From Pseudomonas cremoris (GTDB lineage Bacteria; Pseudomonadota; Gammaproteobacteria; Pseudomonadales; Pseudomonadaceae), in assembly GCF_014230465.1 (NCBI RefSeq), contig NZ_JAAXCY010000002.1, forward strand, positions 124,001 to 188,000: a DNA stretch of 64,000 nt, read 5' to 3'. The translations under genes were made by a program, and so were the position numbers. Under the pieces are notes generated by a model, which saw nothing but the letters and a program-made list of their open reading frames with translations, made no database searches and had not been told where the DNA came from. Of this stretch, positions 4,157 to 37,414 are shown piece by piece; the stretch's first letter is position 1, and every line of letters starts with the position of its first letter.

Positions 4157-4246
4157 TGTGGGAGCGGGCTTGCTCGCGAAAGTGGAGTTTCAGTCAACAC
4201 ATTCATCGACTGATCCACCATTTTCGCGAGCAAGCCCGCTCCCACA
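4157..4246. repeat. REP pair (REPIN), head-inward type
   Basis: Forward and inverted cores flank a spacer of about 42 bp (GTGGAGTTTCAGT... CTGATCCACCA). The element lies in the 130-bp gap between the convergent ferritin-like gene and asmA. Confidence 0.95.
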
Positions 4247-14986: not shown

Positions 14987-15075
14987 TGTGGGAGCGGGCT
15001 TGCTCGCGAAAGCGGTGGGTCAGCTGCAGATGTACTGACTGACACATCGCTTTCGCGAGCAAGCCCGCTCCCACA
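14987..15075. repeat. REP pair (REPIN), head-inward type
   Basis: Forward and inverted cores flank a spacer carrying GTCAGCTGCAG...ACTGACTGACAC. It lies 23 bp after the end of the livF coding sequence and so at the 3' end of the bra/liv transcript. Confidence 0.95.
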
Positions 15076-19079: not shown

Positions 19080-20216
19080 TTACTTCTGTTTTTCCAGCTG
19101 ATGGTATTTACCGTCTTTGTCCCACTGGTAAACCACGTAGTCGGAGACTTTCAGGTCGCCCTTGCCGTCCCAGGCTTTTTCACCCATGACGGTTTTCACC
19201 GGGTGAGCCTTGAGCCACTTGGCGGCGTCTTCGCCCTTGTTGGACTTGGCACCGTTGAAACCAGCGGCCAGGGCCTGGATCGAGGCGTAGGCGTACAGGG
19301 TGTAGCCTTCCGGCTCGACGCCCGCCTTGCGGAATTGCTCAACGACGGCCTTGCTGTCTGGCAGCAGGCGCGGGTCGGCGCCGAAGGTCATGTAGACGCC
19401 GTCGACGTACTGCGCGCCGCCAGCGGTGGCAACCAGTTCGTCGGTGACAACGCCGTCATCGGACATGAACTTGACGTCTTTCAAACCGGCTTCACGGATC
19501 TGGCGAACCAGTGGACCGGCTTCTGGGTGCAGGCCGCCGAAGTACACGACGTCAGCACCGGTGGAGCGGATCTTGGTGACCAGGGCGCTGAAGTCTTTTT
19601 CGCCACGGGTCAGGCCTTCTTCCAGCACCGGCTTCACGCCGCGCTTGGTCAACTGGGCAGCGGTAGCGTCGGCCAGGCCTTTGCCGTAGGTGTCCTTGTC
19701 ATTGATGACTGCGACTTTCTTGCCCTTGAGCACGTCGACGATGTAGTCGCCGGCGACGATGCCTTGCTGGTCGTCACGCCCGCACATACGGAACACAGCG
19801 CCCAGGCCACGCTCGGTCACCTGTGGGTTGGTGGAGCCCGGGGTGATCATGATGATGCCCGCTTCGTCGTACACCTCGGAAGCCGGGATGGTGTTCGACG
19901 AGCAGAAGTGCCCGACCACGCCGATCACTTTGTCCTGGTCAGCCAGGCGGTTGGCCACGGCCACCGCTTGCTTGGGTTCGCAGGCATCGTCACCGGCAAC
20001 CAGCTTGATCTGCTCGCCGTTGACGCCACCGGCCTTGTTGATTACATCGGCTGCCGCCTGGGCACCCTTCATGTACTGCTCACCGAAAGCAGCGTTGGCA
20101 CCCGTCATGGGCCCCGCGACGCCAATCTTCACATCAGCTTGAACAAACGTAGAAACACCCAGTGCCGCTGCAACGGCGAGGGCCAGAAAACCTTTCTTGT
20201 AAAACGTCTGGGACAT
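19080..20216 (-). CDS. braC: Branched-chain amino acid-binding protein BraC (LivJ/LivK type)
   Basis: A 378-residue periplasmic binding protein. The signal peptide (about 1-26, ending TFVQA) leads to mature DVKIGVAGPMTG, the usual first strand of Leu/Ile/Val-binding proteins. Two cysteines (DDACEPKQA and GHFCSSNTIPA) form the conserved disulfide. It captures leucine, isoleucine and valine for LivHMGF. The ATG at 20216 follows GGAG by 8 nt, while an upstream in-frame start at 20249 lacks a site. It is the first gene of the operon, behind a sigma-54 promoter. Confidence 0.95.
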   Translation of the reverse strand: MSQTFYKKGFLALAVAAALGVSTFVQADVKIGVAGPMTGANAAFGEQYMKGAQAAADVINKAGGVNGEQIKLVAGDDACEPKQAVAVANRLADQDKVIGVVGHFCSSNTIPASEVYDEAGIIMITPGSTNPQVTERGLGAVFRMCGRDDQQGIVAGDYIVDVLKGKKVAVINDKDTYGKGLADATAAQLTKRGVKPVLEEGLTRGEKDFSALVTKIRSTGADVVYFGGLHPEAGPLVRQIREAGLKDVKFMSDDGVVTDELVATAGGAQYVDGVYMTFGADPRLLPDSKAVVEQFRKAGVEPEGYTLYAYASIQALAAGFNGAKSNKGEDAAKWLKAHPVKTVMGEKAWDGKGDLKVSDYVVYQWDKDGKYHQLEKQK

Positions 20217-20285
20217 GAGTGGTGCTCCGATATTTTTGATTTTAGGCACTACAACTTGCGTTCAAACTTTCCACTGAAAGCCCAG

Positions 20286-20301
20286 AGCAAGCCTCGTGCC
20301 A
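20286..20301 (-). promoter_or_regulatory. Sigma-54 (RpoN) promoter of the braC-livHMGF operon
   Basis: On the minus strand the sequence is TGGCACGAGGCTTGCT, matching the RpoN consensus TGGCACG-N4-TTGCW at every defined base, with exactly 10 bp between the GG and GC elements. The inferred transcript starts near 20275, giving a leader of about 60 nt. The remaining gap up to 20590 has no gene. GGTGC-type half-sites at 20395-20400 (GGTGCA) and 20436-20440 (GCACC) could bind an enhancer-binding protein, but their spacing is not a classical NtrC site. Confidence 0.8.
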
Positions 20302-21931: not shown

Positions 21932-22020
21932 TGTGGGAGCGGGCTTGCTCGCGAACGCGGTGTGTCAGTCAACAGATGTACAACTGATCTACCGCATTCG
22001 CGAGCAAGCCCGCTCCCACA
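21932..22020. repeat. REP pair (REPIN) between amaB and amaA
   Basis: Head-inward type with spacer GCGGTGTGTCAGTCAACAG...CAACTGATCTACCGC. It lies 12 bp beyond the amaB stop codon and upstream of amaA, so it interrupts the likely transcript. Confidence 0.95.
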
Positions 22021-26959: not shown

Positions 26960-27406
26960 TTACTTCAGAACCACCGCGCCTTTCATCATCGAGTTGTGGC
27001 CTGGGAACGAGCAGAAGAACTCGTATTCAGTGCCCGCCGCCAGCTTGGACACATCGAAGGTCACCGAATCTTTCTCACCAGCACCAATGATCTTGGTGTG
27101 GGCAATCACGCGGGTGTCGCCTTCCTTCAGGTAGTTCTTGTCGATGCCAGCGGCCATGCCGTCGGTGGCAACGCCAGCCATGTCGGCTTTGGTGGTCAGC
27201 ACCCAGTTATGGCCCATGACGTTTTTCGGCAAGCTGCCCGAGTGTTCCAGGTTCACGGTGAAGGTCTTGCAGCTCTTGTCGATCGTGATTTCCTTGGTGT
27301 TGAAGGACATCTGGTCGGTGGAGTCGACGGTGACTGCGCACTCTGCAGCAAGCAACTGGCCGCTAGCCAGAGTCAGCAGGGAAACAGCAACGAGTTTGGC
27401 GAACAT
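26960..27406 (-). CDS. azu: Azurin (periplasmic blue copper protein)
   Basis: A 148-residue precursor. The signal peptide is [19 protein letters not shown] (about 1-20), and mature protein starts [16 protein letters not shown]. Copper ligands are visible: His in GHNWVLT, Cys-x4-His-x3-Met in [12 protein letters not shown]. The structural disulfide is C-A-V...S-C-K. It carries single electrons in the periplasm, to peroxidases or denitrification enzymes under low oxygen. TTGGAG lies 6 nt before the ATG. An ANR-like site lies 71 bp upstream. Confidence 0.97.
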
Positions 27407-27476
27407 GTGAATCTCCAAGGCAGGGTTTAGAAAACGCGTATTGCGACAAGGGTGCCCGATACGGGCGTGAATTCTT

Positions 27477-27490
27477 ATGATCTGAGTCAA
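27477..27490 (-). promoter_or_regulatory. ANR/FNR-like box upstream of azu
   Basis: On the minus strand the site reads TTGACTCAGATCAT, eight of the ten defined positions of TTGAT-N4-ATCAA. Its centre is about 77 bp before the azurin start codon. At the usual -41.5 placement, transcription would begin near 27442. Azurin is known to be under ANR control in P. aeruginosa. Confidence 0.55.
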
Positions 27491-27738: not shown

Positions 27739-27921
27739 ATGGCCAAACCTAATTACTCCTTCGCCAAACGTCAGAGAGACTTGGCCAAGGAGCAGAAGAA
27801 AGAGGAAAAACTGCAACGCAAGAAAGCCGCTGCAGAAGAAGAGGCCAATGGGCTGAACGCAGATGTTGATGGTGAAGAAACGAGCGACGAGACCGAAACA
27901 CCAAAAGATCCGGCTGAATAA
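27739..27921 (+). CDS. Small highly charged conserved protein
   Basis: A 60-residue protein. The basic N-terminal half (FAKRQRDLAKEQKKEEKLQRKK) should form a helix, and the C-terminal half is acidic (VDGEETSDETETPKDPAE). No signal or membrane segment is present. The split charge and lack of hydrophobic core suggest a disordered or RNA/ribosome-associated protein. Similar hypothetical proteins occur throughout Pseudomonas, and none has a known function. GAGG precedes the ATG. It is convergent with the transglutaminase operon. Confidence 0.65.
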   Translation: MAKPNYSFAKRQRDLAKEQKKEEKLQRKKAAAEEEANGLNADVDGEETSDETETPKDPAE

Positions 27922-27967: not shown

Positions 27968-28858
27968 TTATTGCAGCGGCATCACCGTCACCCGAACCTC
28001 CGGGTCATGGTTCCCTCCCCCCAGAATCACCCCCCGCAACGGCGACACATCAGAGAAATCCCGGCCCCAGGCCAAGGTGATGTGCTCCAGTGCCGGCTGC
28101 ACATTATTCGTCGGATCAAAATCCACCCAACCCGACACCGGGCAATACACCGAGACCCACGCATGGGATGCATCGGCACCGATCAGCCGTGGCTGGCCGG
28201 GCGGTGGCTGGGTGAGCAGGTAGCCGCTGATGTAACGCGCCGCCAGCCCGCGTGAGCGCAGGCAGGCGAGCATCAGGTGAGCGAAGTCCTGGCACACGCC
28301 ACGACGGCGCTCCAGCACTTCCACCAACGGTGTGGCGACCTGGGTGGCCTCGGCATCAAAGGTGAACTCGTCAAAGATTTTCTCCATCAATGCCTGCACA
28401 CCCAACAACAGCGGGCGTCCCGGCGGGAAGCAGCTTTCGGAGAATTCGACGAAGGTTTTTTTCAGGTGTACGTAGGGCGACTCGAAGCGGTAGCGACAGG
28501 CTTCGATCAGCTCATCGGTCATCGGCTGGCTGCTGTAGGTCAGGCGGTCACGGGTCTGGTCCCAGGCTGGCGACTGTTGGAAGTCCAGCGCAGGCCGAGC
28601 CAGCACTTCAACGGTCAGGCCCGCATTCACCAATAATTCATCGTGGGGCCGTTCGAACGCCAGCCGCGTGATCGGGTTGCCAAACACGTCCAGCTCATCC
28701 CGCCGAGAGGACGGCTGCGGGCTGATATCCAGTTGCTGCGCGCTGCAACGCTGCCAGGCACACGGCCGTGGCCACAGGTGCGCCAACTGCTGCGCCAGGG
28801 ACACCGGGCTGTCGTAGTGGTAATGGGTATCGTGGAAAATCTGGTAGCGCGCACTCAT
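27968..28858 (-). CDS. Transglutaminase-like cysteine protein (last gene of ATP-grasp operon)
   Basis: A 296-residue cytoplasmic protein with an N-terminal transglutaminase-associated region and a transglutaminase-like core. Its triad is visible: Cys189 (RRGVCQDFAHL), His232 (ADASHAWVSVY) and Asp248 (VDFDPTN). Such enzymes can form or cleave isopeptide bonds. The start ATG at 28858 shares one base with the stop of the ATP-grasp gene (TGATG), so translation is coupled. An upstream in-frame GTG at 28861 is less likely. It probably acts on the product of the upstream ATP-grasp protein. Confidence 0.85.
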   Translation of the reverse strand: MSARYQIFHDTHYHYDSPVSLAQQLAHLWPRPCAWQRCSAQQLDISPQPSSRRDELDVFGNPITRLAFERPHDELLVNAGLTVEVLARPALDFQQSPAWDQTRDRLTYSSQPMTDELIEACRYRFESPYVHLKKTFVEFSESCFPPGRPLLLGVQALMEKIFDEFTFDAEATQVATPLVEVLERRRGVCQDFAHLMLACLRSRGLAARYISGYLLTQPPPGQPRLIGADASHAWVSVYCPVSGWVDFDPTNNVQPALEHITLAWGRDFSDVSPLRGVILGGGNHDPEVRVTVMPLQ

Positions 28859-31344
28859 CACACCGACACCGTTTGCTGGCTGACATCATCCACATGGGCA
28901 AAATGGCGCAGCGCCAGGCGATCCGACACTTGCCCACTCTCATCGGCCACCGCTTGCAGCAGGTCGGCCAGACCGTCCAACGCGGCACGCACGCTGGACT
29001 CGCCAAACAGCGGGTTCTCCAGGCAACCGAGGTCGAACCGCGCCAAGCGCTCCACCAACGGCCCAAGACCGGTTTCCCGGGGCACGCCAAAATCATCGTT
29101 GAGACGGCGCAACGTACGGCTCACCAGTTTCAACTGGAACAACACCGCATGGGGGTTCTGCTCGTCCAACAGCAACAGGTCGAGCACCGGGATCAACTGC
29201 GGCACCGCCAAGTAGCGCGAGCGATAGGTGATGCTGCTGTTGCCCAGTTCCAGCAACCACTCCAGCCCCGCCTGATCGAACACCGCCACGCCACGCAGGA
29301 ACGCTGCGAGGCTGCTGCTGAGGAATTGCAGGCGCTCGATGCGCCGCCCCATCATCAAAAAGCGCCAGCCTTCATCGCGGGTCATGTCGTCCAGGGCAAA
29401 CCCGGACAACGCCGCCAGGGACATCACCAGGCGGTTGAGGAAGTCCAGCAACTCGCCAAAATCCGGGGTTTCACTTTCCAGCTCCATGGCTTCGCGTTGC
29501 AACTCCACCAGGGCCTGCCAGTTCTCGCGGGACAACTTGCCGCGCACTTGGGAAGCCGCCCACTGCAAGCGCTGCAGGTTGGCGCGCAGGCTCGACGGCC
29601 AGTCATCGCCCAGCAGCGCTGCCAACAGACGCTCGGGCAACTCGCCCTCCTCCGGCAGCAAGCGCAGGGTTTCGCCCAGTTCGACAGCGGCCTGCAACGC
29701 CAATGGGTCATCACCATCCACATAGCGTGCCAGCACGATACGCAGCCAGCGCGCGCTGTCATCGCAGCGCTCGCAATAACGACCAAACCAGAACAGGTTC
29801 TCCACCACGCGGGATGGCAAGTACGGATCGCGGCGCACCAGGTCATGGGCGCCAATCGCGCGTTGCGCACGCCAATGCTCGCCACCGGTGGCGCGTTCGC
29901 CGAGCACCCAAGTGTCTTTGCTGGCCCCGCCGCGCTGCATCGACACCACTTCGGCATCGGCTTCTGCGGCTACGCGGGTGAGCCCACCGGGCAGCACGCG
30001 ATACCCTTCATCGCTGGCCACGGCGTACACCCGCATGCCAATGGCGCGGTGTTGCAGATGATCTTCCACGGTGTGCCACACCGGCGCCTGGGACAACTGC
30101 GCCAGCTCCTGGGCAACATAGGCGTAAGGCCGTGCGCGCATGCGTTCAGCCAGGGCCTCGCGTTGTTTTTCGTCCAGGTCGCGACCGAACACCGGGCTAA
30201 AGCTCTGCGACGGAAACGCTGGCTTGATCAGCAGTTCGGGCAGTTTTTCCAAGGCTTCGGCAAGCACCGGCGCTTCACCGCACCACCAGGTGGCGATGGA
30301 CGGCAGGATCAGTTCCTCGCCGAACAAAAATTCGTTGATCTTGGGAAGAAAACCAAGCAAACCGGGGGACTCCAGCACGCCGCTGCCCAAAGCATTGGCC
30401 ACTAGCACGTTGCCCTGGCGCACGGCATCCAGCAGCCCCGGCACGCCGAGGGCTGAGTCAGTGCGCAGCTCCAGAGGGTCGCAGAAATCGTCGTCGAGGC
30501 GCCGCATGATCGCGTGCACGCGGCGCAGCCCGCTGAGGGTTTTCAGGAACACGCAGCTGTCGCGCACCGTGAGGTCGCCCCCTTCTACCAACGGGTAGCC
30601 GAGTTGGCGGGCGAGGTAGAGGTGTTCGAAATAGCTTTCGTTGAAACGCCCCGGTGTGAGCAACACGATCAACGGCGGCTGGTCATCGACGGGCGCCTGG
30701 CGGGCCAGGGTTTCCTGCAAGGTACGGAAGAAACCCGTGAGGTGCTGCACCTGCAAGTCACGGTACAGGTCCGGGAACGCGCGGGACACGATGGTACGGT
30801 TTTCCAACGCGTAACCGGCACCCGACGGGGCCTGGGTACGGTCGGCGGTGACCCACCAGCGACCATCCGGCGTGCGCGCGAGGTCCACGGCGTAGAGGTG
30901 CAAAAACGCTCCATCCGGCGGCTGGATGCCCTGACACGGCCACAGGAAATTGTTGTGACCGAACACCAGCTCAGCCGGCAACAGGCCTTCCTTGATCAAG
31001 CGTTGCGGGCCATACAGATCGGCCAACACGGCATTGAGCAAGCGCGCGCGCTGGGCGATCCCCGCCGACAGCTGCTGCCATTCTTCGGCCGCCAGCACGT
31101 GGGGCAGCAAATCCAGCTCCCATGGGCGGTCGGCGCCCTTTGGGTCGGCGTAGACGTTGTAGGTCACGCCGTTTTCCTGGATCTGCCGGGTCAGCAGCGC
31201 TTGGCGCTGGGCCAGTTGCGCGGGAGTGCTGCGTTGCAGGTGGTCAAGCAGGCGCTGCCAATGGGCACGCACCGCACCGCTGTCATCGAGCAGTTCGTGA
31301 TAAGTGCCCGCGGTCAGCGGGTAACGGTCGAGCAAGTCGGACAT
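28858..31344 (-). CDS. Circularly permuted ATP-grasp (type 2) fused to alpha-E domain
   Basis: An 828-residue protein. Residues of about 60-480 form the circularly permuted ATP-grasp domain (DUF404/DUF407), with TYNVYADPKGADRPWELD and VLVANALGSGVLESPGLLGFLP. From about 500 the alpha-E helical domain (DUF403) begins (LPSRVVENLFWFGRYCERCDD). In many genomes these are two adjacent genes. ATP-grasp enzymes join a carboxylate to an amine using ATP, so peptide or amide-bond synthesis is expected, but no substrate is known. The start at 31344 (MSDLLDRYPL) was preferred, and an upstream GTG at 31383 is possible. Confidence 0.85.
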   Translation of the reverse strand: MSDLLDRYPLTAGTYHELLDDSGAVRAHWQRLLDHLQRSTPAQLAQRQALLTRQIQENGVTYNVYADPKGADRPWELDLLPHVLAAEEWQQLSAGIAQRARLLNAVLADLYGPQRLIKEGLLPAELVFGHNNFLWPCQGIQPPDGAFLHLYAVDLARTPDGRWWVTADRTQAPSGAGYALENRTIVSRAFPDLYRDLQVQHLTGFFRTLQETLARQAPVDDQPPLIVLLTPGRFNESYFEHLYLARQLGYPLVEGGDLTVRDSCVFLKTLSGLRRVHAIMRRLDDDFCDPLELRTDSALGVPGLLDAVRQGNVLVANALGSGVLESPGLLGFLPKINEFLFGEELILPSIATWWCGEAPVLAEALEKLPELLIKPAFPSQSFSPVFGRDLDEKQREALAERMRARPYAYVAQELAQLSQAPVWHTVEDHLQHRAIGMRVYAVASDEGYRVLPGGLTRVAAEADAEVVSMQRGGASKDTWVLGERATGGEHWRAQRAIGAHDLVRRDPYLPSRVVENLFWFGRYCERCDDSARWLRIVLARYVDGDDPLALQAAVELGETLRLLPEEGELPERLLAALLGDDWPSSLRANLQRLQWAASQVRGKLSRENWQALVELQREAMELESETPDFGELLDFLNRLVMSLAALSGFALDDMTRDEGWRFLMMGRRIERLQFLSSSLAAFLRGVAVFDQAGLEWLLELGNSSITYRSRYLAVPQLIPVLDLLLLDEQNPHAVLFQLKLVSRTLRRLNDDFGVPRETGLGPLVERLARFDLGCLENPLFGESSVRAALDGLADLLQAVADESGQVSDRLALRHFAHVDDVSQQTVSV

Positions 31345-31390
31345 GGAACGCTCGGCAGAGGCAAAGAAGGTCAAGGTCAGCACAGTCTAA

Positions 31391-31418
31391 TGTGGGAGCT
31401 GGCTTGCCAGCTCCCACA
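31391..31418. repeat. Single REP-like hairpin (different subfamily)
   Basis: TGTGGGAGCTGGC-TT-GCCAGCTCCCACA, a perfect 13-bp stem. The stem base equals that of the main REP family but the tip differs (CTGGC instead of CGGGCTTGCTCGCG). It stands alone in the 87-bp gap between the large transglutaminase gene and the ATP-grasp gene of the same operon. It could attenuate or stabilise the transcript. Confidence 0.8.
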
Positions 31419-31431
31419 TTTTGGATCGTGT

Positions 31432-34400
31432 TCAATCATTTTTATGGGGGAAACGCCGCAAGTCTAATGTCATCGGCAACTCATCATTGATGACAACCTG
31501 TGGCACCGGCTGCTTGCCGGGCGTATGCCCCAACCGGAAAAACCGCGCCATCCGCCGGCTCTCCGCTTCATTGGCATTCACCGGCAAGCTGTTGTAATTA
31601 CGACCACCTGGATGGGCAACGTGGTACTGGCAACCACCCAAAGAGCGCTGCATCCAGGTATCCAACAGATCAAATACCAACGGCGCATGCACCGGGATGG
31701 TCGGTTGCAGGCAGTTGGCCGGCTGCCAGGCGCGGTAGCGCACACCAGCGACAAACTCGCCCACCCGGCCAGTGGCTTGCAGCGGCACGGGGACGCCATT
31801 GCACGTCAGCAGATAGCGTTGCGGTGCCAACCCGGTCAACTTCACTTGCAGGCGCTCCAGGGACGAGTCCACGTAGCGCACCGTGCCGCCCACTGCGCCC
31901 TCCTCGCCCAGTACGTGCCAGGGCTCCAAGGCCTGGCGCAGTTCCAGTTCGATGCCGCTGACGGCGTAGTCGCCCACCTTGGGGAAACGGAACTCCAGGT
32001 GCGCAGCAAACCATTCGGCGCGCAATGGGTAGCCAGCGGCATTGAGTTCGACGATCACGTCGGCAAAGTCCTGCTCGATGAAGTGCGGCAACAGGAAACG
32101 GTCATGCAACTCAGTGCCCCAACGCGCCAGTTTCTGCGGCGCATAGGGTTCGCGCCAGAACCGCGCGACCAGGGAACGCAGCAACAATTGTTGGGTAAGG
32201 CTCATGCGCGCATGCGGCGGCATTTCAAACGCGCGCAGTTCCAGCAGGCCCAGTCGGCCCGTGGCGCCATCCGGTGAGTAGAGCTTGTCGATGCAGAACT
32301 CGGCGCGGTGGGTGTTGCCCGTCACGTCGATCAGCAGGTTGCGCAGCAAACGGTCCACCAACCACGGCGGGCATTCCTCGCCCGGCTCGGGCATTTGTGC
32401 GAAGGCGATTTCCAGCTCGTACAGCGCGTCGTTGCGGGCTTCGTCCACCCGCGGTGCCTGGGAAGTCGGGCCGATAAACAGACCGGAAAACAGGTACGAC
32501 AGCGAGGGATGGTTGTGCCAGTAACTGATCAAACTGCGCAGCAAATCCGGGCGGCGCAAAAACGGTGAATCCTTGGGCGTCGCCCCCCCGAGTACAAAGT
32601 GGTTGCCGCCGCCGGTGCCCGTATGGCGCCCGTCGATCATGAATTTTTCAGTGGTGAGGCGGGTTTGCCGCGCTTCTTCGTAAAGAAACTCGGTGCGTTC
32701 GACCAACTCATCCCAGGTGGCGGACGGCTGCACATTCACCTCGATCACACCGGGGTCCGGCGTGACACGGAAGTTGCTCAACCGCGTATCGGCCGGTGGC
32801 TCGTAGCCTTCCAGCAACACCGGGCAGTGCAGTTCTTCGGCGGTGCCTTCGATAGCAGCGACCAGCTCAAGATAATCCTCGACCCGCTCCAGCGGCGGCA
32901 TAAACAGGTACAGCCGGCCTTCCCGCGCTTCGGCACACAGGGCGGTGCGGGTGAGCCAATCGGCGGACTGGTCCACCTTCGGCACACGCTCATCGACGGG
33001 CGCGGCTTCATCATGGCGCTGCAGTTGTGCGGTGGTCGGCAGTTCCGGCTGATCCTGGTTAGGATCGGTGGGGTGCACAAACGGATATTCCGCCGCCGTC
33101 ACCCAAGGCTGCGACGCCAATGGCAAGCGATAGCCTAGCGGCGAATCGCCGGGCACCAAGCGGCAGTGATTGTCGCGCAGGTACCAGCGCCCGCTCTGCC
33201 AGCGGTCATTGGCGGCAGTACGCGCCAGCGGCAGCACCTGACCGATGATTTTATCCAAGCCCTGGCTGAATACTTTGCGCAGGCGCTCGCGCTCCAGCTC
33301 ATCGCTCAGGCGCGGGTCCTGGGCGGTGACGTTTTGCGGCAGTGCGCCCTCACGCCACAGATAGTAAAAATTGTCTTCGAAGGCCGGGAATACAAAGCGT
33401 GCCGGTAGCTTCAAGCGTTCAGCAACGCTCGCCAGGAAACGCCCGGCCATCGTGCCGTCCGCGCCATAGTCTTCTCGCTCGTCGGCGATCAGCGCGCTGT
33501 TATGCCAGATCGGCACACCGTCGCGGCGCCAGTAGCAATTAAGCGACCATCGCGGCAATTGCTCGCCGGGGTACCACTTGCCCTGGCCGAAGTGCACCAA
33601 GCCTTTTGGCGCGTAGTGCTTGCGCATACGCTGGAACAGCTCGGCGGACAGGCGACGTTTATCCGGCCCAAGCGCCGCGGTGTTCCATTCGGCGCCATCA
33701 GGGTCGTCAATGGACACGAAGGTGGGCTCGCCGCCCATGGTCAGGCGCACGTCATCCTTGAGCAGGTCGCCGTCGATCTGCCGGCCCAGGGCCTGGATCG
33801 CCAGCCATTGTTCTTCGGTGTAGGGCTTGGTGACGCGTGGCGCTTCCCAAATCCGCTCTACCGACATTTCGTGGGTGAATTCACACTCGCAAGGCTCCAC
33901 CAGCCCACTGATTGGCGCAGCAGACGATGGATCGGGACTACAGGCCAATGGGATGTGGCCTTCACCGGCAAACAGACCGGACGTGGCGTCCAGGCCGATC
34001 CAGCCGGCACCGGGTAGATACACCTCACACCAGGCGTGCAGGTCGGTGAAGTCCACCTCGGTACCGGACGGACCGTCGAGGGCTTCGACATCAGCGGTGA
34101 GCTGGATCAGGTAACCCGACACAAACCGTGCCGCCAGCCCCAGATTGCGCAGAATCTGCACCAACAGCCAAGCCGAGTCGCGGCACGAACCGGAAGCGTT
34201 TTCCAGGGTGAATTCCGGGGTCTGCACGCCCGGCTCCATGCGGATCAGGTAACCGATATCGGCGGCCAGGCGCTGGTTGAGACCCACCAGGAAATCCACC
34301 GCCGGCAGTGGCGTACGGTCGATACCCGCCAGGTAGGCGGCAAACTTTGGCGTGAGCGGCAAGGTTTCCAGGTAGGGCGCCAGCTCACGCTGTTCATCGG

Positions 34401-34722
34401 CGGCGTAGCTGAAGGGGATTTTTTCAGCGTACGGTTCCAGGAAAAAGTCAAACGGATTGAACACCGCCATCTCGGCGACCAGGTCAACTTCGATACGCAG
34501 CTCGTCGGTCTTTTCCGGGAATACCAACCGCGCCAGATAATTGCCCTGGGGGTCCTGCTGCCAGTTGATGAAATGCTGTTCGGGCAGCACTTTCAACGCG
34601 TAGGACAAAATCCGCGTGCGGCTATGGGCCGCCGGGCGCAAGCGCACGATCTGTGGGCCGAGCTCAACGGCGCGGTCGTAGCGGTAATGCGTAACGTGGT
34701 GCAACGCGACATGAATCGACAC
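31432..34722 (-). CDS. Large transglutaminase / DUF2126 protein (first gene of operon)
   Basis: A 1096-residue protein. The first 290 residues are a transglutaminase N-region plus core with triad Cys180 (ASGSCRDSAWL), His229 (TDLHAWCEVYL) and Asp245 (IGLDATSG). Residues of about 330-1090 are DUF2126, with VIEVNVQPSATWDELVE and DGRHTGTGGGNHFVLGG, reminiscent of glutamate-cysteine-ligase-like amidoligases. The start is a GTG at 34722 behind CAGGAGG, because the longer frame has no ribosome site. It has no signal peptide, so it is cytoplasmic. It is followed by the ATP-grasp/alpha-E and second transglutaminase genes. Confidence 0.85.
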   Translation of the reverse strand: MSIHVALHHVTHYRYDRAVELGPQIVRLRPAAHSRTRILSYALKVLPEQHFINWQQDPQGNYLARLVFPEKTDELRIEVDLVAEMAVFNPFDFFLEPYAEKIPFSYAADEQRELAPYLETLPLTPKFAAYLAGIDRTPLPAVDFLVGLNQRLAADIGYLIRMEPGVQTPEFTLENASGSCRDSAWLLVQILRNLGLAARFVSGYLIQLTADVEALDGPSGTEVDFTDLHAWCEVYLPGAGWIGLDATSGLFAGEGHIPLACSPDPSSAAPISGLVEPCECEFTHEMSVERIWEAPRVTKPYTEEQWLAIQALGRQIDGDLLKDDVRLTMGGEPTFVSIDDPDGAEWNTAALGPDKRRLSAELFQRMRKHYAPKGLVHFGQGKWYPGEQLPRWSLNCYWRRDGVPIWHNSALIADEREDYGADGTMAGRFLASVAERLKLPARFVFPAFEDNFYYLWREGALPQNVTAQDPRLSDELERERLRKVFSQGLDKIIGQVLPLARTAANDRWQSGRWYLRDNHCRLVPGDSPLGYRLPLASQPWVTAAEYPFVHPTDPNQDQPELPTTAQLQRHDEAAPVDERVPKVDQSADWLTRTALCAEAREGRLYLFMPPLERVEDYLELVAAIEGTAEELHCPVLLEGYEPPADTRLSNFRVTPDPGVIEVNVQPSATWDELVERTEFLYEEARQTRLTTEKFMIDGRHTGTGGGNHFVLGGATPKDSPFLRRPDLLRSLISYWHNHPSLSYLFSGLFIGPTSQAPRVDEARNDALYELEIAFAQMPEPGEECPPWLVDRLLRNLLIDVTGNTHRAEFCIDKLYSPDGATGRLGLLELRAFEMPPHARMSLTQQLLLRSLVARFWREPYAPQKLARWGTELHDRFLLPHFIEQDFADVIVELNAAGYPLRAEWFAAHLEFRFPKVGDYAVSGIELELRQALEPWHVLGEEGAVGGTVRYVDSSLERLQVKLTGLAPQRYLLTCNGVPVPLQATGRVGEFVAGVRYRAWQPANCLQPTIPVHAPLVFDLLDTWMQRSLGGCQYHVAHPGGRNYNSLPVNANEAESRRMARFFRLGHTPGKQPVPQVVINDELPMTLDLRRFPHKND

Positions 34723-34962
34723 GGCGGCCTCCTGCGAGCCAGGGCATGGGCTTGACGCGCGCAAGACTTATGCCAGAGCGGCAGTCATTGCGCTTTATCG
34801 TAAGACCCGGTGCAGTACAGCACCAAAACGGCGCGAACGGTGGCGCCATGGTGCAAGCGTCGCACCTATTTGTACCGTCTGTGTGACGGCGGGTGGTGAA
34901 TCTACCCAACCACATGCGTGGGTAGCCTGGCGCAACCGACGCACTGTCACTGGAAAGCACGC

Positions 34963-35011: not shown

Positions 35012-37315
35012 TCAACGCGGCACCACGGGCTTGCGCGCAGGTTTGCCGCCCTTGCCCTTCGCGGCATCGCTACGTTCCTTGGCAGCCTGCTTGTTACGTG
35101 CCTGGGCCGCAGCCTTGGCTTGCTCACGCTTGTCCCATGGGTTGCTGCCATCGCTACCGCGCGGAGGCAAACCGGTGTGCTGAGTGAGGATCTTGGTGGT
35201 GGTTTCCTTGGCGACCTTATGGCTGCCAGCCGGCGTCGAGTTCTTGCGACGGGCGCTCTGGTAGCTGTCGGTGGACGGCTGGTGCAGCGGGATCAACTGG
35301 TCCTTGCCCGGGCCGATCAGATCACCGCGCCCCATGCGGGTCAACGCTTCACGCAGCATCGGCCAGCCTTTCGGGTCGTGGTAGCGCAGGAACGCCTTGT
35401 GCAGACGGCGCTGCTCTTCGCTCTTGACGATGGTCACCGCGTCGCTCTTGTAGGTGACCTTGCGCAACGGGTTCTTGCCCGAGTGGTACATCGCGGTGGC
35501 AGTGGCCATTGGCGACGGGTAGAACGCTTGCACCTGGTCGGCGCGGAAGCCGTTGCCCTTGAGCCACAGGGCCAGGTTCATCATGTCTTCATCGGTGGTG
35601 CCTGGGTGGGCGGCGATGAAGTACGGGATCAGGTACTGCTCCTTGCCCGCTTCCTTGGTGTACTTCTCGAACATGCGCTTGAACTTGTCATAGCTGCCAA
35701 TGCCCGGCTTCATCATCTGGTTGAGCGGACCTTCCTCGGTGTGTTCCGGGGCGATCTTGAGGTAACCACCGACGTGGTGGGTGACCAGTTCCTTGACGTA
35801 TTCCGGCGACTCGACGGCGAGGTCATAGCGCAGGCCGGACGCGATCAGGATTTTCTTCACCCCCGGCAATGCACGGGCGCTACGGTACAGCTGGATCAAC
35901 GAGGAGTGGTCGGTGTTCAGGTTCGGGCAAATGCCCGGGAACACGCACGATGGCTTGCGGCACGCGGATTCGATTTCCGGGCTCTTGCAGGCGATGCGGT
36001 ACATGTTCGCGGTCGGGCCGCCGAGGTCGGAGATCACACCGGTAAAGCCCGGGACTTTGTCGCGAATCTCTTCGATTTCGCGAATGATCGACTCTTCGGA
36101 ACGGTTCTGGATGATGCGACCTTCGTGCTCGGTGATGGAGCAGAAGGTACAGCCGCCAAAGCAGCCACGCATGATGTTCACCGAGAAACGGATCATGTCG
36201 TAGGCCGGGATCTTTTCCTTGCCGTACGCCGGGTGCGGGATACGTGCGTAAGGCATACCAAACACGTAGTCCATTTCTTCGGTAGTCATCGGGATGGGCG
36301 GCGGGTTGAACCACACGTCCACTTCACCGTGTTTTTGCACCAGGGCGCGGGCGTTGCCTGGGTTGGTTTCCAGGTGCAACACGCGGTTGGCGTGGGCGTA
36401 GAGCACGGCGTCGCCGCGGACTTTTTCCACCGATGGCAGGCGGATCACGGTCTTGTCGCGGGTCATTTTCGGGCTGGCCAGGATCTGTACGACCTTGGCT
36501 TCTTCCGGGTCATCCACCGGGCCTTTCTCTTGCTCGATGGCGCAGGCCTGGGTGTCCTGGGTGTTGACGTACGGGTTGATGATCTTGTCGATCTTGCCCG
36601 GGCGGTCGATACGGGTGGAGTCCACTTCGTACCAGCCCGCCGGAGTATCGCGGCGAATGAACGCGGTGCCGCGCACATCGGTAATGTCTTCGATCTTGTG
36701 GCCCCACGACAGGCGTTGGGCAACCTCGACGATAGCCCGCTCGGCGTTGCCGTACAGCAGGATATCGGCGCTGGCGTCGATCAGGATCGAGTTGCGCACG
36801 CGGTCCTGCCAGTAGTCGTAGTGGGCGATACGGCGCAGGGAGGCTTCGATGCCGCCGAGTACGATCGGCACGTGCTTGTAGGCTTCCTTGCAACGCTGGC
36901 TGTACACCAGGCTCGCGCGGTCCGGGCGTTTGCCGGCCATGCCGCCAGGGGTGTAGGCGTCGTCGGAGCGAATCTTTTTGTCGGCGGTGTAGCGGTTGAT
37001 CATCGAGTCCATGTTGCCGGCCGCGACGCCGAAGAACAGGTTCGGCTCGCCGAGCTTCATGAAGTCGTCTTTGGACTGCCAGTTCGGCTGGGCAATGATC
37101 CCGACGCGAAAGCCCTGGGACTCCAGCAGCCGGCCGATAATCGCCATGCCGAACGACGGATGGTCAACGTAGGCATCACCGGTAACGATGATGATGTCGC
37201 AGGAATCCCAGCCAAGCTGATCCATCTCCTCCCTGCTCATCGGCAGGAATGGCGCAGGACCGAAACATTCGGCCCAGTACTTGGGATAGTCAAATAACGG
37301 CTTGGCTGTTTGCAT
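35012..37315 (-). CDS. ygiQ: YgiQ family radical SAM protein
   Basis: A 767-residue protein. The N-terminal B12-binding-like region ([22 protein letters not shown]) is followed by the radical SAM core with [18 protein letters not shown] (Cys-x3-Cys-x2-Cys), which binds a 4Fe-4S cluster and SAM. A DUF3362 C-terminal region and a basic, lysine/arginine-rich tail of about 60 residues complete it. The reaction is unknown. The start ATG at 37315 ([16 protein letters not shown]) matches the family, and the longer upstream frame adds unrelated residues. It is monocistronic. Confidence 0.92.
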
Positions 37316-37414
37316 GACGGTGACCGGTGTTGAGATGAAAAATCGCGGGCGCGGAATATAGCACAATTTTTGACCAATTCCGACGGTAGTAGTCGGAATT
37401 ATGGAGAGCTAAAA

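Follow-up and report, generated by a model that had tools for sequence, protein, structure and literature searches.

The three genes at positions 27968 to 34722 on the minus strand of the 64,000-nt stretch analysed here (the window) raise the question of what their products do and under which conditions they are called upon. An open reading frame check of the whole window, which is Pseudomonas-like, found all three frames open and located as in a preliminary description made from the DNA letters alone. Gene 1 (31432-34722; 1096 aa) starts at a GTG codon at 34722 and encodes a transglutaminase-fold domain followed by a DUF2126 domain (31456-33897; residues ~276-1089 of 1096). Gene 2 (28858-31344; 828 aa) encodes a circularly permuted ATP-grasp domain fused to an alpha-E domain (28900-29820; residues ~509-815 of 828), and an alternative upstream GTG at 31383 would extend it by 13 residues. 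Gene 3 (27968-28861; 297 aa), a stand-alone transglutaminase-fold protein, starts at the GTG at 28861 or at the next codon (28858), and its start overlaps the end of gene 2. A radical-SAM gene (35012-37366) lies on the upstream side in the same direction as the operon, and an azurin-like gene (26960-27490) on its downstream side. Our preferred reading, held at little better than even confidence, is that the operon constitutes the DUF2126 half of a two-module, cytosolic ligase/amidase system for amide bonds, switched on by nitrogen limitation via NtrC and sigma54.

Pfam searches placed the three proteins firmly in the families named by the preliminary description, with all matches above curated cut-offs. 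Gene 1 matched Bact_transglu_N, Transglut_core (55.7 bits; cut-off 23) and DUF2126 (1354.1 bits; cut-off 27), presenting the N-terminal transglutaminase domain fused to DUF2126 that characterizes the TG-DUF2126 family. Gene 2 carries CP_ATPgrasp_2 (524.4 bits; cut-off 32) and Alpha-E (217.9 bits; cut-off 20.8) in a single chain, the combination that delimits the fusion family of these domains, and gene 3 matched Bact_transglu_N and Transglut_core. NCBIfam returned no family for genes 1, 2 or 3. Placement in families of known function had been named beforehand as grounds for giving up the initial interpretation, and the HMM matches point to families for which no tested function was found for members of this kind. 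These protein families are already known, and the operon is a further member of them; protein searches yielded at least 7999 relatives of gene 1 (all 7999 scored candidates matching) and at least 7998 of gene 2 (7998 of 7999). The public names of close relatives include 'IMP dehydrogenase' (gene 1) and 'molybdopterin oxidoreductase' (gene 2), which are contradicted by the Pfam results and hence are probable database misannotations.

The triads described for both transglutaminase-fold proteins are intact. In gene 1, the columns corresponding to C180/H229/D245 are invariant in all 43 aligned sequences, and all 84 sequences compared for gene 3 retain its triad (C190/H233/D249 counted from the GTG at 28861, or C189/H232/D248, as originally numbered, from codon 28858). 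Triad loss in relatives keeping the operon, which the preliminary description had likewise regarded as damaging, was hence not seen in either set. The absence of export signs was also borne out by the non-hydrophobic N-termini of all three proteins, none of which resembles a signal peptide (19-residue Kyte-Doolittle mean at most 0.19 over the first 32 windows).

At the structural level, a search with the whole gene 1 sequence against solved structures gave no match. The structure model of its DUF2126 domain (mean pLDDT 75.5) matched the glutamine-synthetase (GS) fold in VIA-align, with a profile comparison against GS that is not significant (hhalign E 0.3). The domain contains the invariant motifs GGEPTF, PGVIEVN, GTGGGNH and ELRAFEMPPH, in an order that we take to be GS-like. 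The model thus supports DUF2126 as a putative amidoligase-like domain of glutamine-synthetase fold, and the operon differs from the glutamine synthetase family ligases GS, GmaS and YbdK (7-14% identity) in that DUF2126 is fused to a transglutaminase domain. For gene 2, the sole solved relative detected by sequence at E 0.001 was 3n6x, named as a putative glutathionylspermidine synthase, and the AlphaFold model supports a predicted glutathione-synthetase/glutathionylspermidine-synthetase fold for its ATP-grasp. Identity of this ATP-grasp to glutathionylspermidine synthetase/amidase, YgiC/YjfC and Cp1B amounts to 10-13%, and, in contrast to the first of these, the partner hydrolase in the operon is a separate protein of transglutaminase fold. 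The sequence of gene 3 resembles structures 3isr and 6g49 (TgpA).

Proteins of these families have been linked to amide-bond chemistry before. In 2008, the TG-DUF2126 homologue Rv2566 was assigned to the carboxylate-amine ligase superfamily in a paper that reports no Pup-like ORF nearby (PMC2588565). A role in peptide synthesis or tagging has been proposed for ATP-grasp/alpha-E/transglutaminase sets in papers citing Iyer et al. 2009 (PMC5666114, PMC6376114), and the ATP-grasp protein of an Anbu operon is described in the available sections of one of these as releasing phosphate from ATP (PMC6376114). The published prediction of amide-bond chemistry for such sets, to which the preliminary description had appealed, is supported by these papers on relatives (PMC2588565, PMC5666114). 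As portrayed in the consulted parts of the citing papers, the systems predicted by Iyer et al. 2009 share their protein families and predicted chemistry with the operon, which is the version with a fused ATP-grasp/alpha-E plus DUF2126. The Anbu operon (ATP-grasp, alpha-E, transglutaminase and Anbu; PP_2685-2688 in P. putida) has three of its four families in common with the window operon, but the latter lacks Anbu, has ATP-grasp and alpha-E fused, adds DUF2126, and has relatives that carry a separate stand-alone module elsewhere.

The genomic distribution of the operon was analysed in the best 80 of at least 578 loci confirmed by a genome-contig scan (33 from Pseudomonas and 47 others), a selection that biases the sample towards close relatives. 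The order TG-DUF2126, fusion, transglutaminase was found in all 33 Pseudomonas loci and in 42 of the 47 others; among the remaining five, contig ends truncate three (L063, L066 and L084), and neither partner was found in the flank of the other two (L072 and L108). Within flanks of up to 10 kb, a stand-alone ATP-grasp and a stand-alone alpha-E were both present in 25 of the 47 non-Pseudomonas loci, among them Betaproteobacteria, Marinobacter, a planctomycete MAG and a Verrucomicrobiales MAG, and in none of the 33 Pseudomonas loci of this best-80 sample. In Pseudomonas the second module sits elsewhere in the genome: 31 of 36 congeners presented two or more alpha-E matches, typically in two frames of different size (~320-440 aa and ~840 aa), and the five matches in genome G001 include pieces of broken frames. 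No stand-alone alpha-E was found in the 64,000-nt window.

Co-occurrence of the two modules was also evident in 199 genomes of the phylum, in which DUF2126 was detected in 60, alpha-E in 115 and Anbu in 75. Alpha-E was present in 60 of 60 DUF2126-positive genomes (56 of them with two or more matches) versus 55 of 139 DUF2126-negative genomes (7 of the 55 with two or more), with a Fisher P of 6e-19 that ignores shared descent. DUF2126 itself is dispensable, since 5 of 57 relatives (G002, G008, G010, G016 and G050) keep an alpha-E frame of fusion size without it. The set described initially as a complete predicted cassette thus usually has a further ATP-grasp/alpha-E module of stand-alone genes beside it or elsewhere in the genome, in some cases together with the proteasome-like protein Anbu, and we conclude from these genomic associations that the operon is one half of a paired two-module system. 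The genome search for conserved partners and for fused versus split forms proposed in the preliminary description yielded the stand-alone pair in the 25 loci above. No neighbour family of at least 80 aa was common to the majority of 59 loci that do not belong to the named Pseudomonas set, a comparison that includes one congener locus (L014) and in which the commonest neighbour clusters were histidine kinases (8), ABC ATPases (5) and a competence protein (5).

Several individual loci depart from the general arrangement. In the nearest genome compared, the operon is found at 98-100% identity (L027 6800-13575, L025 and L026) but split into several frames, a likely assembly error given that stand-alone ATP-grasp genes are broken there too. 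In one small genome (L018 8119-15253), a Bmp/PnrA-type ABC transporter comes immediately after the stand-alone ATP-grasp/alpha-E pair. In G039 (L024 8437-12583), a transglutaminase-fold protein that shares ~50% identity with gene 1 over its first domain and is devoid of DUF2126 adjoins Anbu and sits opposite a stand-alone ATP-grasp/alpha-E pair; it is possibly an ancestor or a remnant of the TG-DUF2126 fusion.

The association with Anbu bears on an alternative in which the ligases would tag proteins with a peptide or amine, and the tag would be removed, or the target degraded, by the transglutaminase folds or, where it is present, by Anbu, in a pupylation-like process under nitrogen starvation. 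This alternative, which we deem unlikely, draws on the appearance of the TG-DUF2126 homologue in a paper on Pup ligase (PMC2588565), on the nitrogen response of Anbu operon genes in P. putida in the available data of two studies (PMC8050072, PMC7801951), and on a distance below 1 kb between Anbu and DUF2126, seen in at least 11 of the 199 genomes. In 12 genomes chosen by visual inspection as having both on one contig, the distance between the two was 158-898 nt in 11 and 7.3 kb in one, and 74 of the 75 Anbu genomes contain alpha-E. Anbu is nevertheless detected in only 36 of the 60 DUF2126-positive genomes, leaving 24 without it (39 of 139 DUF2126-negative genomes have it), and in 3 of 36 Pseudomonas relatives with a two-sequence Anbu model, which leaves 33 without it and only one of the three DUF2126-positive. 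Its frequency in the flanks of the best 80 of at least 578 loci was 4 of 47 outside Pseudomonas and 0 of 33 within, and no match to it was obtained in the whole window by tblastn, or in the nearest genome, G001. Furthermore, Y. bercovieri Anbu is reported, in the accessible part of the study, to show neither peptidase activity nor a specific complex with its operon partners (PMC6376114).

A modifier for such tagging was not apparent either: the locus has no Pup-like gene, as was the case around the homologue in the accessible text of PMC2588565, and its sole small conserved neighbour failed the tests for one. This neighbour, a convergent 60-aa ORF (27739-27921, plus strand) adjoining the operon, has an invariant basic N-terminus (MAKPNYSFAKRQRDLAKEQKKEEK...) and a variable acidic tail, and lies beside the operon in all 19 Pseudomonas genomes that carry it. 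Its variable C-terminus, and relatives in other taxa that are located away from DUF2126 and also occur in DUF2126-negative genomes, argue against a role as partner or Pup-like modifier.

The expression component of the preferred two-module reading was addressed through the upstream region of gene 1, scanned over up to 250 nt for TGG[CT]-N7-TTGC with starts fixed by homology. In the window, a sigma54-type (-24/-12) element, TGGCATAAGTCTTGCG (34760-34775, minus strand), precedes the GTG start by 53 nt, and an NtrC-like site, GCGCCGTTTTGGTGC (34820-34834, minus strand), with one mismatch in ten to GCACC-N5-GGTGC, lies 59 nt upstream of it; both were named after what we take to be the sigma54 and NtrC consensus sequences. 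The sigma54-type site was found, always at -52 to -54, in the window and in all 33 Pseudomonas loci, which are related and do not represent 33 independent events, versus 10 of 368 regions preceding other ORFs from the same loci. An alignment of 16 upstream sequences identified the -24/-12 element as the best-conserved feature of the region, with most core columns invariant against a mean column identity of 50%. The NtrC-like motif (up to two mismatches), 40-110 nt above the sigma54 site, was present in 31 of 34 upstreams versus 24 of 368 distance-matched controls. Outside Pseudomonas, a sigma54-like site was detected upstream of gene 1 in 15 of 46 loci (control, 10 of 376), and a looser pattern detected one ahead of the gene that opens the cluster in 20 of 44 loci (control, 28 of 375; two further upstreams censored), at times over a long distance. 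The stand-alone module was compared in 22 congener upstreams with starts inferred from protein alignment: 17 have a sigma54-like site ~35 nt upstream, and 16 have an NtrC-like palindrome at -101 to -104. The -24/-12 element and NtrC-like site place the operon, by sequence, among candidate members of an NtrC/sigma54 regulon, and a nitrogen response through this promoter type is likely.

Other sequences in the window also match the sigma54 pattern. A perfect consensus, TGGCACGAGGCTTGCT, occurs at 20286-20301 (minus strand), ~37 nt upstream of the first start of ORF 19080-20249, which encodes a branched-chain amino-acid type binding protein and is followed by ABC transporter genes; these may constitute a second sigma54-controlled operon. 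Counts of the pattern in the window are inflated by TGGGAGCGGGCTTGCT, presumably a REP-like element, which occurs 21 times, often in inverted pairs ~40-70 nt apart (for example at 2441-2456 and 2510-2525, 4159-4174 and 4229-4244, 14989-15004 and 15058-15073, and 21934-21949 and 22003-22018).

The regulator may also be a different one, with sigma54 acting through another enhancer-binding protein, or a promoter not of sigma54 type, and a signal other than NtrC-mediated nitrogen limitation. We consider this improbable, given the published response of a homologous cluster. In B. cenocepacia H111, I35_5080-5083 encode DUF404/407, DUF403, transglutaminase-like and large transglutaminase-like proteins and changed in an ntrC mutant under nitrogen limitation by log2 -8.2, -9.4, -9.4 and -6.0, and the accessible part of the study names them among the common targets of NtrC and sigma54 (PMC5491218). 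This cluster joins contiguously the stand-alone module and TG-DUF2126, the halves that lie apart in Pseudomonas, and in B. arboris (L087) the same order, ending in TG-DUF2126, is followed by the fusion and the transglutaminase. The high conservation of the -24/-12 element and the NtrC-like site at a similar distance in the sister module of congeners also argue against a different regulator. Conversely, the NtrC-like site has one mismatch in the window and two in ten in many relatives, is absent from 3 of 34 upstreams, and shares its stretch with two more palindromes (GGTGC-N6/7-GCACC), one of them overlapping it; at L087, the closest counterpart of the published NtrC target among the loci, no sigma54 site was found at the first gene in the stretch scanned.

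Data from P. putida add a further element of doubt. PP_2685-2688 are listed under NtrB/NtrC, and PP_2686-2688 rose 11- to 15-fold in the wild type under nitrogen limitation, with PP_2685 (Anbu) hardly changed (1.12), but PP_2686-2688 also rose 14- to 20-fold in an rpoN mutant, where urtABCD were likewise up (PMC7801951). The sigma54 dependence of this sister operon is hence not borne out. A comparison of nitrate with ammonium in another study gave log2 differences of 4.4 for PP_2685 and 4.0 for PP_2688 (PMC8050072). In the parts consulted, marine metagenome statistics link these domains to urea metabolism (PMC3597751), and a survey of predicted sigma54 regulons includes the proteasome-type protease COG3484 (PMC12316311).

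A response to nitrogen limitation through NtrC and sigma54, as in the preferred reading, may be combined with a different function, in which the transglutaminase-fold proteins act mainly as amidases or proteases freeing nitrogen from peptides and the ligases re-amidate the products. The fellow NtrC targets in the available B. cenocepacia table are indeed scavenging enzymes and transporters, such as urease, dipeptide transport and xanthine dehydrogenase (PMC5491218), and the mycobacterial YebA-superfamily protein Rv2569c, at most a putative counterpart of gene 3, is described in the accessible text as a protease (PMC11081392). Two ATP-consuming ligase folds would, on the other hand, be wasteful in a pure breakdown pathway, and ligase and transglutaminase genes occur together in those 42 of 47 non-Pseudomonas loci among the best 80 of at least 578, and we regard this scavenging role as equally improbable.

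The preferred reading of the operon as a ligase/amidase set draws on established enzymology. ATP-grasp and GS folds activate a carboxylate as an acyl phosphate that is then joined to an amine, transglutaminase and papain folds form a thioester and hydrolyse or transfer the amide, and the pairing of a ligase with a cysteine amidase is the logic of glutathionylspermidine synthetase/amidase. Following this logic, the operon can be read as a reversible amide-conjugation set for scarce nitrogen, and amide-ligase/amidase chemistry is likely. The ATP-grasp would convert a carboxylate to an acyl phosphate and join it to an amine, DUF2126 would form a second amide of gamma-glutamyl type, and the two papain-like cysteine enzymes of transglutaminase fold would hydrolyse or transfer these amides, in parallel with the way in which the amidase half of glutathionylspermidine synthetase/amidase undoes the work of its synthetase half. 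Alpha-E may serve as a helical partner or scaffold. The cytosolic set would thereby act under ammonium scarcity to assemble, shorten or recycle a peptide or amine conjugate with an amide linkage, whose acceptor may be a small molecule or a protein.

A broader proposal, which we regard as unlikely, unites the fused DUF2126 operon with the stand-alone ATP-grasp/alpha-E module, with or without Anbu, in one hitherto unrecognised NtrC/sigma54 conjugation pathway for nitrogen starvation. Such a pathway would comprise a pair of ATP-grasp ligases, a ligase of GS fold, several deconjugating enzymes of transglutaminase fold and, in certain lineages, also a proteasome-like hydrolase, and would serve several phyla in building and removing a novel tag or metabolite with an amide linkage. 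In the open-access literature, no report was found of a sigma54/NtrC-type promoter on the fused DUF2126 operon in Pseudomonas, or of its systematic pairing with the stand-alone module.

These families were predicted to be peptide or amide ligases in 2008-2009, and no product was found reported since in the open-access literature. The conserved sigma54/NtrC-type promoter suggests that the missing condition is nitrogen limitation, providing a physiological context absent from the preliminary description, and the tight pairing of the modules suggests that the missing partner is the stand-alone ATP-grasp/alpha-E set. Anbu, a proposed ancestor of the proteasome, is in turn suggested to be an optional part of the two-module system. 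Overall, the promoter looks like one switched on by nitrogen starvation, and would thus offer a growth condition in which to search for the product.
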